DNA from: Planctomycetota bacterium | Lineage (GTDB): Bacteria > Planctomycetota > Phycisphaerae > Sedimentisphaerales > Anaerobacaceae | Direction of reading: 5' to 3' | NCBI GenBank assembly: GCA_022563885.1 | Contig: JADFMM010000023.1 | Span: forward strand, 1-39,001 | DNA length: 39,001 bases | Part shown: piece by piece, positions 5,589-33,996 of the stretch | Layout: each line of letters begins with the position of its first letter | How positions within the stretch are numbered: the stretch's first letter is position 1 | Made by a program: the position numbers and the translations under genes | The notes under the pieces: generated by a model | What the model was told of the DNA's origin: nothing | Databases searched by the model: none | What the model saw: only the letters and a program-made list of their open reading frames with translations

Positions 5589-5724
5589 AACTATACACGT
5601 CTTAGATTTTTAGAGTCCCACGTCATCGTTCAACAGTCGGTCTCCCATACTCCCTATCGACCGCTGGTGGGATCTAGATGATCACAATCCTGAATTTTTC
5701 ACCCTATTCTAGGACCTCTTCGTG

Positions 5725-7813: not shown

Positions 7814-7989
7814 GGTGGGTATCGTGGACAACCCAGCCCAACAAAACGGCTGGATGAATATAAACCCTTGATTATGATCAGTCGGTTCTGGCAAGTCAAA
7901 GAGAAAAGTTGGGCATTGGTAGAAAACTGACGAATTTAGTGGTGGCGGGCTTGCCGCGCCCAAAGTGTGTCGTTCAGATTGCCTTTGTC

Positions 7990-8064
7990 GCTTAGCGGTC
8001 GCGACCCAATTATGGGGCACACTTGGACCCCAAATTGTCCAACTTATTCATTGCCGATCCCTAA
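7990..8064. mobile_element. Family A MITE-like element, right end (copy 1, partial)
   Basis: Bases 7998-8064 match the right half of the full element at 18421-18605. They share GCGACC, then GGGCACACTTGGACCCCAAATTGTCCAA in two blocks, and the terminal inverted repeat (read on minus) GGGATCGGCAA. The left end is not clear; a faint GGCAAG...TTGGGCATTGG similarity near 7889-7919 may be its decayed remnant. The terminal repeat overlaps the last codons of mtaB, so the MtaB stop codon lies inside the element. Confidence 0.65.
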
Positions 8065-9373: not shown

Positions 9374-10656
9374 AACTTCAGGGAGGCCGCCCCGCTGTTG
9401 TTGCGAATCCACGCGAGTGCCTGATTGAGGCCGGCGACCGTCACCTTTACGCGTGCATCAAAAAGTCGATTGTCTGTCTTTCCTCGCTCGCGGTACGCTT
9501 GAATCAACTGGGCGTTTTCCGCGGCAGAGGGATGGTCCAGACGCTCATCCGTATCTATCTTTTCCGAAAGAGTCTGCGCTGGATCAAACCGGATCTCCTG
9601 TCGACAATAGCTGCCATCGCCCTGCCGAACCGTACAGAGCAGACGGATCAGGCGATGCAGCGAAAACCCGATGGTGCCCTCGATACCCGCCCGCACCACG
9701 ATCGCCGCGGGATAACCGGCCCGTTCGGCGATGGCGGCCATCTTTTCCCCATAGGACGGGTGGAAGGCCGATGTCACGAGGACGTCTGCCCCGACCGGGT
9801 TAATAAACTTCTCGAGTGTGGCCAGGAAGGGCCGCTTGACGGTTTGGTGACGAATCTCCACCCAGCCGTCAATGGCCTGGGAAAGATCCCGCTGATGCAA
9901 GTACCAGCCGAATTCCGGCTGAGGGTCGCCGAGTTCGGTGGAACTCTGAGCGTTTGAGAGCTGCAGCGCCTCTGTCACGTCGAGTAGATTGAAGACCCTT
10001 TTCGGTCCGCTGTTGCGGCCCACCATCGTCACCACACGGTAGCCTGCCGACTTCAATTCACGGGCCAGGAGGGGAGTGATCATGTTGGAGCGGTCCACGC
10101 CATCGAAGGGCTCCGCCAGTTGAACGATGGGATTCCCGGGAGGCGTCGCCTCGCGAAAGGGCGCTTCCAGCGTCTCATTCATGGCCTTCAGCAACCCCTC
10201 GTACTCCTCCGGCGTTTCATAGCGAACGCGCAGGAAACTGGCGACCAATCCCTTGGCGCCGTCACAACTGTCCGGCTGAAAGAGATACTGGCCTAGTCCG
10301 TGGGCCGTAGCGACGTCGAGGGTTTCGCCGGCCAGCAGCCGGCCACACACCCTCCGCACCCAGGGGGGCGCTTCTGGCGCGAGTAACTCTGCCAATCTGC
10401 CCAATCTGGAGAGATCTCTCAAGACACCCGGCTCCAGGGCCTCTTCGAGTCTCATCTCCACTTCCGACACGCCTTTATTGATGAGGCCGGCGAAAAAAGC
10501 GGCCCGCGCCACGGGCGTGACCTTGTCGGCCTTCAACGCGCGCACGATCTCTTCCACCAGGTCCGGACCGAGCGATTGACTCGCCTTCTTGCCGATCCCC
10601 ACCGTTTTAATGCCGCGTTTGATGGCTGGTTCGTCTGCTTTGAAACGAATGGGCAT
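9370..10656 (-). CDS. Divergent anthranilate phosphoribosyltransferase-like (glycosyltransferase family 3) protein
   Basis: The start at ATG 10656 is chosen because GGGAG lies five bases upstream; another ATG four codons earlier has no such site. The 428-residue protein has an N-terminal helical domain (VEEIVRALKADKVTPVARAAFFAGLINKGVS), like the GT3 N-terminal domain, then a family 3 catalytic fold. The usual GTGGDG phosphate loop of TrpD is replaced by EPFDGVDRSN near residue 185, and KHGNR by MVGRNSGPKR. It is therefore probably not a tryptophan-pathway enzyme. It resembles TrpD2/YbiB-type proteins, some of which bind nucleic acid. It is translationally coupled to mtaB, which fits an RNA-related role, but this is inference. 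No other trp gene is nearby. Confidence 0.7.
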   Translation of the reverse strand: MPIRFKADEPAIKRGIKTVGIGKKASQSLGPDLVEEIVRALKADKVTPVARAAFFAGLINKGVSEVEMRLEEALEPGVLRDLSRLGRLAELLAPEAPPWVRRVCGRLLAGETLDVATAHGLGQYLFQPDSCDGAKGLVASFLRVRYETPEEYEGLLKAMNETLEAPFREATPPGNPIVQLAEPFDGVDRSNMITPLLARELKSAGYRVVTMVGRNSGPKRVFNLLDVTEALQLSNAQSSTELGDPQPEFGWYLHQRDLSQAIDGWVEIRHQTVKRPFLATLEKFINPVGADVLVTSAFHPSYGEKMAAIAERAGYPAAIVVRAGIEGTIGFSLHRLIRLLCTVRQGDGSYCRQEIRFDPAQTLSEKIDTDERLDHPSAAENAQLIQAYRERGKTDNRLFDARVKVTVAGLNQALAWIRNNSGAASLKL

Positions 10657-18420: not shown

Positions 18421-18605
18421 TAAGGAACCGGCAAGAAAATAACTTGGACTTTTGGATGCCCAATTGCACCGCATCTTTGGCCGCTTCTCAATCGCCAAAT
18501 CCTCACTGTAGCCCACTATACCTCCGGTTTGGCTCAATCGGCGCGACCAAATCTACGGCACACTTGAACCCCAAAATGTCCAATTTATTTCTTGCCGATC
18601 CCTAA
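18421..18605. mobile_element. Family A MITE-like element (copy 2, complete, 185 bp)
   Basis: The element has imperfect terminal inverted repeats of about 32 bases. The left end reads GGAACCGGCAAGAAAATAAC then TTGGACTTTT. The right end, read on minus, is GGGATCGGCAAGAAATAA then ATTGGACATTTT. The interior contains ATGCCCAATTGCACC, CGCTTCTCAATCGCCAAATCC and GCTCAATCGGCGCGACCAAAT, shared with the copy at 33829-33986. No open frame of note lies inside, so it is non-autonomous. The right terminal repeat overlaps the last codons and stop of the SGNH gene. Confidence 0.75.
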
Positions 18606-19328: not shown

Positions 19329-19679
19329 CGTCGTCTTTCTCCTAATGCGGTAGTCGAGGCGCCGAGTCTACGACGTTGCCTCTCACACCTCGTTTACTGC
19401 TGGTTGCCAAGGACAGCCTTAGAGCACAAAATGAGTCTGCATTCGAGCGGCTTATTTTCCCTCTGGACGGCGTCAGGCTCCATCGACCATCCTCGGATGG
19501 CCTGCTTCGCCTTCCTTGCCAGAGGCACGAAACGCTCGCTCTCGGTGCGACGATCATTGTGTTAGGGGCTCTTAGTGCTCGTCCTCATTGTCCTTCCTTG
19601 GCCAGGCGGCCAATATTCGGTGTCTTTACTTTTAGGTGTCATATTATTCAAACTTTTATCACCAGCAGGATCCTGACTT
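19329..19679. other. Intergenic region holding a family B element
   Basis: This 351-base gap lies between matB and the SGNH gene. Most of it is the inverted-repeat element at 19416-19569. A perfect 6-bp hairpin TTGGCC-AGGC-GGCCAA lies at 19598-19613 downstream of matB. It has no T-run on the minus strand, so I do not call it a terminator. Confidence 0.5.
19416..19569 (-). mobile_element. Family B MITE-like element (short copy)
   Basis: The ends are inverted: GCCTTAGAGCACAAAATGA on the left and TCATTGTGTTAGGGGC on the right. Read on the minus strand, the interior shares several blocks with the element at 28750-28963: CGAGAGCGAGCGTTT, CTGGCAAGGA followed by GGCGAAGCAGGC, GTCGATxxAGCC, and AATAAGCCGCTCGAA (AACAAGCCGCTCGAA in the other copy). 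The terminal repeats of the two copies differ. No coding frame is credible. Confidence 0.5.
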
Positions 19680-28697: not shown

Positions 28698-29117
28698 AAT
28701 TCAGCACCGATAGTTCTGTGGATTCAGACTTGGGGACCGGTAAGAAAAAGGCTTTGTCGGAAAACTCCGTCGTCGGCCCGAGAGCGAGCGTTTTTTCGCC
28801 TGGCAAGGACGGCGAAGCAGGCGATGTTGGTTTTATCGTCGATACAGCCGGATGCGGACAGGCGGACAACCCTGTTGCCTCGTGCAGCCCCTGCTGCGCT
28901 AGCAGCGTCGAACAGCTAAGAAAACAAGCCGCTCGAAGCCAGATCGAGTTTTCCGACACAGCCAAGTGCCTATCGAACGCCCTGCAACGCCTCATGTACT
29001 TCTCCGCCGTGACGGGCGATGATCTCGGAGATTTCCACGATGTCTTGCGAAGAAGTACGGAAGTTGACGATGCAGGCGCAGCAGACCCCGTCTCATTTGT
29101 TCCTTTGCGGCTCCTTA
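28698..29117. other. Intergenic region holding the long family B element
   Basis: This 420-base gap between cysK and the sialidase operon is half occupied by the inverted-repeat element 28750-28963. GGGGACCGGTAAGAAA at 28733-28748 resembles the left end of family A (GGGACCGGCAAGAAA) and may be a fragment of it. No gene is supported here; open frames across the element are repeat-derived. Confidence 0.5.
28750..28963 (+). mobile_element. Family B MITE-like element (long copy, 214 bp)
   Basis: The terminal inverted repeats are GGCTTTGTCGGAAAACTC (28750-28767) and GAGTTTTCCGACACAGCC (28946-28963), matching at 17 of 18 positions. The interior shares several blocks with the element at 19416-19569 in the opposite orientation. 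It carries no transposase, so it would need one supplied elsewhere, or it is an internally deleted insertion sequence. No clear target duplication is visible; AA flanks both sides. Confidence 0.65.
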
Positions 29118-33740: not shown

Positions 33741-33996
33741 TTAACTTCCTCCGACAGGAGTGTTATACCACCGGCCGAGTGCAGCGAGGTGCAATTGGAG
33801 CCGCTTGTTCAAATCATTTTTTCTCACGGAGGGACCGGCAAGAAATAACCTGGACTTTTGAATGCCCAATGGTACCTCATCTTTGATCGCTTCTCAATCG
33901 CCAAATCCGCTACCTAGAACGGCTACGCCTGTGGTTTCGCTCAATCGGGCGCGACCAAATAGGGGCACACTTGGACTCCAAATTGTTCTTTAGGTT
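33741..33996. other. Intergenic region with a truncated family A element
   Basis: This 256-base gap lies between copA and the 616-residue secreted protein. Its right part is the family A element at 33829-33986. The left part holds the ribosome site of the secreted protein. No gene is supported. Confidence 0.5.
33829..33986. mobile_element. Family A MITE-like element (copy 3, right end lost)
   Basis: The left terminal repeat (GGGACCGGCAAGAAATAACC, then TGGACTTTTG) and the whole interior match the copy at 18421-18605: ATGCCCAAT, CATCTTTG, CGCTTCTCAATCGCCAAATCC, GCGCGACCAAAT and GGCACACTTGGACTCC. Similarity stops after AAATTGT near 33986; the right terminal repeat is missing. The copper ATPase stop codon is only about ten bases further, so this is a junction between the element and the copA segment. 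Confidence 0.7.

Follow-up and report, generated by a model that had tools for sequence, protein, structure and literature searches.

The repeat at positions 18421-18605 of the window (the whole stretch of 39,001 nucleotides that was analysed) contains a full-length copy of a MITE, a short, multi-copy, non-coding element with terminal inverted repeats and target duplications, for which one empty site was found. It is very probably a non-autonomous transposon mobilised in trans by ISAzo13-family transposases; we infer both the mobility and the moving enzyme of this subfamily from the sequences. As a class, this is a known kind of element. What is unusual is the combination of a conserved core, a near-constant length and changing ends.

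Copies in the window and in the host genome

The original prediction described three copies of the repeat in the window, all in the same orientation, and we located the three of them, so oriented, by nhmmer (Table 1). The 185-bp element that it delimited was confirmed as an element but not in its bounds, as the element proper (18424-18602) is accompanied by two TAA target repeats. Similarly, the inverted repeat is present, but its proposed length of about 32 bp is too short: the pairing spans the whole 180 bp. The hairpin formed by the full element has a predicted energy of -61 kcal/mol, against -36 +/- 3.6 for shuffled sequences (z = -6.9). Copy 2 is too decayed and folds poorly.

Table 1. 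Features of the element copies in the window
Feature	Position	Strand	Details
Left target repeat TAA	18421-18423	+	Same letters as 18603-18605; site empty in G001
Copy 1, full-length, 179 bp	18424-18602	+	Tips GGAACCGGCAAGAAAATAACTTGGAC / GGGATCGGCAAGAAATAAATTGGACA; nhmmer model 1-180, 178 bits; 100% of BLAST query; fold z = -6.9
Hairpin core, conserved, with two facing TCAATCG motifs	18460-18568	+	Covariance model R1, 106 bits; two element alignments
Right target repeat TAA (minus strand TTA)	18603-18605	+	First codon of the tail given by the element to the SASA-domain gene
End of SASA-domain ORF within the element	18585-18602	-	Tail ...HSESLGIGKK* vs ...HSESR* at the empty site of G001
Copy 2, without right tip and without either target repeat	33831-33989	+	nhmmer model 1-160, 162 bits; R1 86.5 bits at 33866-33975
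Copy 3, right-end fragment	7988-8061	+	nhmmer model 107-180, 55.7 bits; tip 19.7 bits on ISAzo13 matrix
TAA next to copy 3	8062-8064	+	Read from sequence

The BLAST search suggested by the prediction, run with copy 1 on the host genome (G000; 6.5 Mb in 470 contigs), returned 76 matches, far beyond chance, which form two close groups with about 98% and 86% identity to copy 1. The tip of the element, with up to three mismatches allowed, occurs 473 times in the same genome, while the reversed pattern gave no match. Using the covariance model, about 41 core-bearing loci were found in 774 kb of the host, corresponding by extrapolation to about 350 core-bearing copies per 6.5-Mb genome, or about 1% of it; these values indicate an order of magnitude only, because the 774-kb sample is made of contigs already known to contain copies. 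Most host copies are 178-180 bp long, and they have no coding capacity.

Taken together, the host and G001, a genome of the same genus, provided 60 distinct full-length copies, of which 43 are bordered by identical 3-bp flanks; in 36 of these 43 the repeated triplet is TAA or TTA. Moreover, the locus of copy 1 is empty in G001 (contig C553), which reads GTGAAATTAGCGAGACTC where the window reads GTGAAGTTAA, the element and TAAAGACTC, with flanks 92-93% identical to the window on both sides, over 2.1 kb. Since a genome of the same genus shows the empty site, the element inserts. As a result of the insertion, the adjacent SASA-domain protein ends in HSESLGIGKK* instead of HSESR*. The prediction of a dispersed, gene-less inverted-repeat element of MITE type is thus upheld by the many copies and by the target duplications that it suggested looking for. 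It also indicated the empty-site comparison as a way to be refuted in favour of ordinary segmental duplication of the three window copies; this explanation now has a negligible probability, as it is refuted by the clean empty site of G001 and disagrees with the 3-bp target duplications and with hundreds of copies in unrelated flanks.

None of the 27 full copies of the host sample lies within a predicted gene. When a predicted gene was present on both sides (25 copies), the gap was codirectional in 17 cases, divergent in six and convergent in two, nearly matching how the intergenic bases divide among the three gap types (62, 29 and 8%). The copies are spread as the intergenic bases are, and therefore show no particular preference for gene 3' ends, contrary to the place downstream of genes proposed by the prediction. 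The common orientation seen in the window could not be extended to a general rule, since long open frames enter the copies in the same orientation in 20 cases and in the opposite one in 11, without significant preference. The idea that the element marks the edges of foreign blocks found no support either: the genes flanking copy 1 adjoin each other in G001 without the element, at 92-93% identity. Lastly, we discarded the targeting of stop codons. An ORF stop falls at the duplication or at the first base of the element in 10 of 27 sampled copies, yet TAA or TTA followed by G makes stops unaided.

Several other repeats were observed in and around the element, here named family A. The window regions 19427-19576 and 28749-28965 each belong to another dispersed repeat family, with 16 and 30 BLAST pieces, respectively, in 774 kb of the host. 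Both families are numerous in G001 and G002 and have part of their sequence in common, in inverted form. A mini-insert of about 60 bp (CAGCGGCTTCC...GGCTGCGATAGCAGC...) occupies two fixed places in many family A copies, giving composites of 241-342 bp (L091 1501-1741, L097, L158 5601-5930 and L172 8494-8734), and a similar one is present in the second of these repeat families (window 28749-28965). REP-like palindromes of the GGGACAGTC...GACTGTCCC type lie inside copies in L097, L158 (about 5601-5700) and L165 (5802-5870 and 8765-8870). Core-less miniatures of 45-75 bp, barely more than two tips and mostly with TNA-like flanks, were found in L150 (3206-3250), L157 (1190-1255), L173 (7849-7913) and L149 (about 9935-10011).

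Element ends and the ISAzo13 family

The ISAzo13 elements (PF07592) found in the host (G000:C48) and in G001 (C44) have the same end plan as family A and TAA/TTA flanks, and one ISAzo13 element is inserted flush against an element copy. To avoid circularity, the ISAzo13 end matrix was built on other species: starting from 80 loci of other organisms, the ends were located by requiring some 3-bp repeat whose letters were left free, and 35 usable elements provided 70 ends. In 33 of these 35 the repeat was TAA or TTA, a target duplication common to the element and ISAzo13. Scanning 774 kb of the host, the matrix gave 80 hits above 16 bits; because 71 of them are element ends, against two hits in the reversed control, we consider the tips of the element to be ISAzo13-type tips on sequence grounds. 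Their consensus is of the GGRnYCGnnAAGAAATAACTTGGACA type, and the tip of the host-genus element is GGGAYCGGCAAGAAATAA.

Neither the host nor G001 yielded an intact ISAzo13 bearing the tip of this subfamily, and most element-bearing genomes outside the host genus gave no ISAzo13 hit whatsoever, which may be an effect of draft assemblies. The plasmid collection searched gave no useful match. In the distant genome G463, a decayed ISAzo13 has ends that read TTA followed by GGGTCCGAGAAAAAATAACTTTAC and the resident element has ends that read TTA followed by GGGTCCGAGAAAAAATAATCTTAC, matching at 18 of 20 tip bases. For both G463 and G492, the best ISAzo13 match among 23 element tips (subfamilies) is the tip from the same genome. 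A DDE_Tnp_1 (PF01609) transposase was evaluated as partner and rejected, as none of 18 loci is flanked by element tips; L074 adjoins a single tip that points away, and L067 merely has a full copy nearby.

Two loci deserve mention for their arrangement. In L106 (560-2465; G001:C44), nine consecutive A divide the ISAzo13 gene into two frames, which may reflect programmed frameshifting, and a family A copy is directly adjacent. In L057 (G000:C267), core-like and tip-like fragments of family A (934-964 and 2390-2407) flank a gene for a DDE_Tnp_1 (IS4-like) transposase, which may have inserted in an old copy.

With the ISAzo13 insertion sequences (PF07592, NCBIfam NF033519) the element shares the tip plan and the 3-bp TAA/TTA duplication, but it lacks a transposase gene, measures 180 bp instead of about 1.3 kb and has an interior unrelated to that of the resident ISAzo13 elements inspected. 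Like the prokaryotic MITEs ERIC, Correia/NEMIS, QMITE2 and Chunjie (PMC10969869, PMC2229807), it is short, non-coding, inverted-repeat, intergenic and multi-copy, with a long hairpin, and its estimated copy number falls in the range quoted for ERIC (30-711). It differs from them in keeping its roughly 180 bp and a covarying core across many families of the phylum under changing tips. As regards membership of ERIC or Correia by sequence, no Rfam family was found in the window at the gathering threshold. ISAzo13 is unmentioned in the 2024 review, and no earlier ISAzo13 MITE was found in the literature searched, where the paper containing both terms describes none.

The original prediction proposed a MITE or a REP-type element, and the first of the two names is the one retained. 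An element of the REP/REPIN type, which a RAYT (Y1) transposase mobilises via single-stranded hairpins, could account for the palindromic structure, the intergenic location, the high copy number and a GTAG conserved in the inner hairpin. We regard this as very improbable, given the 3-bp target duplications, the ends of DDE-transposon type and a length of 180 bp, far above that of REP units (20-40 bp; PMC3733652).

Core and ends across the phylum

The host itself contains subfamilies that combine this core with different tips, as do G002 and G028, and nearly all of their elements are 178-180 bp long. Among 14 representatives, the mean identity was 54% for the tips and 78% for the core, the latter being more similar in 90 of 91 pairs. 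Within the host's family, the 111-base core model matched 8 of 89 genomes, in 5 of 45 genera; out of 392 genomes sampled over the phylum it matched a further 10, which belong to seven other families, with E-values down to 2e-23. The distant copies that could be delimited are mostly 176-181 bp long, and the majority are flanked by TAA/TTA and end in tips particular to them (e.g., GGAGGCGTAAAACAATAA, GGTGTCGTGTCAAAATAA and GGAACGTGCATGTAATAA). Among the ISAzo13-bearing genomes of other organisms, mostly from other phyla, a core match was present in one of 45, on a contig that looks misbinned. This contig, L328 (G537:C14) of a Candidatus Methanolliviera MAG, carries three elements with a variant core. 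We rejected it as an archaeal carrier because it encodes an HlyD-type adaptor, an AmpG-like transporter and an RbbA-like protein, has a bacterial look and is probably misbinned.

Many copies in G463 and in the related G441 have unrelated ends (TACCCATCACGAATTGGTTTTC), with the form TACCCAT...ATGGGTA between two TA; the TA-type end in the genus of G463 is TACCCATCACGAATTGG. Six of the eight copies of this type inspected have TA on both sides, with lengths of 178-179 bp, and the family A core is present in the two TA-type copies sequenced through. These copies resemble the IS630/Tc1-mariner MITEs, which have a TA target, but differ from them in carrying the family A core. Neither an autonomous TA-type transposon nor a transposase with TA-type ends was found in 800 kb of G463. 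A further candidate TA-type tip, in L348 of G472, was left out of the count, as a one-base deletion in an ISAzo13 tip would explain it equally well. On the sequences compared, the ends vary by lineage: nearly all are ISAzo13-like, and one genus has many unrelated TA-flanked ends.

An ordinary MITE could also have produced this pattern, if its tips had drifted with the ISAzo13 transposases of each lineage and the shared core were a functionless product of descent or horizontal transfer. Coherently with this, the majority of tips across all genomes conform to the ISAzo13 plan and are flanked by TAA/TTA, and the distribution is patchy. We nevertheless hold such drift to be somewhat unlikely: core identity exceeds tip identity in nearly every subfamily pair, double changes preserve the core pairs phylum-wide, and the unrelated TA-flanked tips of G463 and G441 are hard to reach by drift.

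Hairpin pairing and proposed mechanism

Double changes that preserve pairing were found at 29 of 51 hairpin pairs in an alignment of 14 elements and at 23 of 27 core pairs in one of 26 elements, with shuffled and slid controls far below in both. G-T cells are not in excess over A-C cells, with 16 vs 28 and 17 vs 23 in two alignments. Therefore, pairing at the DNA level fits these counts and selection on one RNA strand does not, which points to a core pairing as DNA. The facing TCAATCG motifs are unpaired and conserved in most carriers.

Alternatively, the hairpin could be under selection at the RNA level: within transcripts from adjacent genes, it would serve as mRNA terminator, stabiliser or RNase site, as in ERIC and Correia/NEMIS, and this would keep the core constant. 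Such roles are known in other small mobile sequences (PMC2229807, PMC10969869) and are compatible with the strong fold, the covariation and the intergenic location. Nonetheless, the orientation to genes is without significant bias (20 vs 11), the A-C cells are not outnumbered by G-U, no Rfam match exists in the window and terminators show no excess (one found vs 0.5 expected in shuffles), so that we judge selection as RNA rather improbable. The facing TCAATCG motifs, which read GAUUGA on the opposite strand, also suggested a role through neighbour transcripts; it was discarded as the orientation and G-U counts give it no support.

We propose that an ISAzo13 transposase binds element tips of the consensus type and inserts the element at TAA/TTA, the target being thereby duplicated. 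The long palindrome would be maintained at the DNA level, and template switching between its arms would carry a mutation from either tip into the opposite one. In this way, matched tips could let the element follow new transposases with its core unchanged. Template switching between arms produces double changes of this kind (PMC8794818, PMC7202029) and would account for the ability of the two tips to change in concert. To this part of the mechanism, in which the palindrome is kept at the DNA level and arm template switching rewrites the tips while the core stays, we assign roughly even chances, less than to the movement by ISAzo13 transposases. As a counterpoint, template switching would tend to erase the facing TCAATCG/TCAATCG mismatches, yet these persist; since it does not explain these conserved unpaired motifs, we take them to suggest that the core is under some additional constraint.

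More tentatively, with somewhat less than even chances, the structured DNA hairpin core could be a long-lived chassis of about 180 bp that exchanges its ends and has borne many ISAzo13-type tips phylum-wide, as well as tips belonging to an unrelated TA-inserting transposon in one genus or more. The palindrome would let template switching rewrite both tips, and the transposase exploited could thus change. MITEs are usually seen as short-lived remnants of one transposon, bound to its ends, whereas here the core appears to outlast the ends. If confirmed, this would open to direct testing the way in which a non-autonomous element can retain a matched pair of ends when it changes enzyme, and the role of a conserved DNA hairpin in a mobile element.
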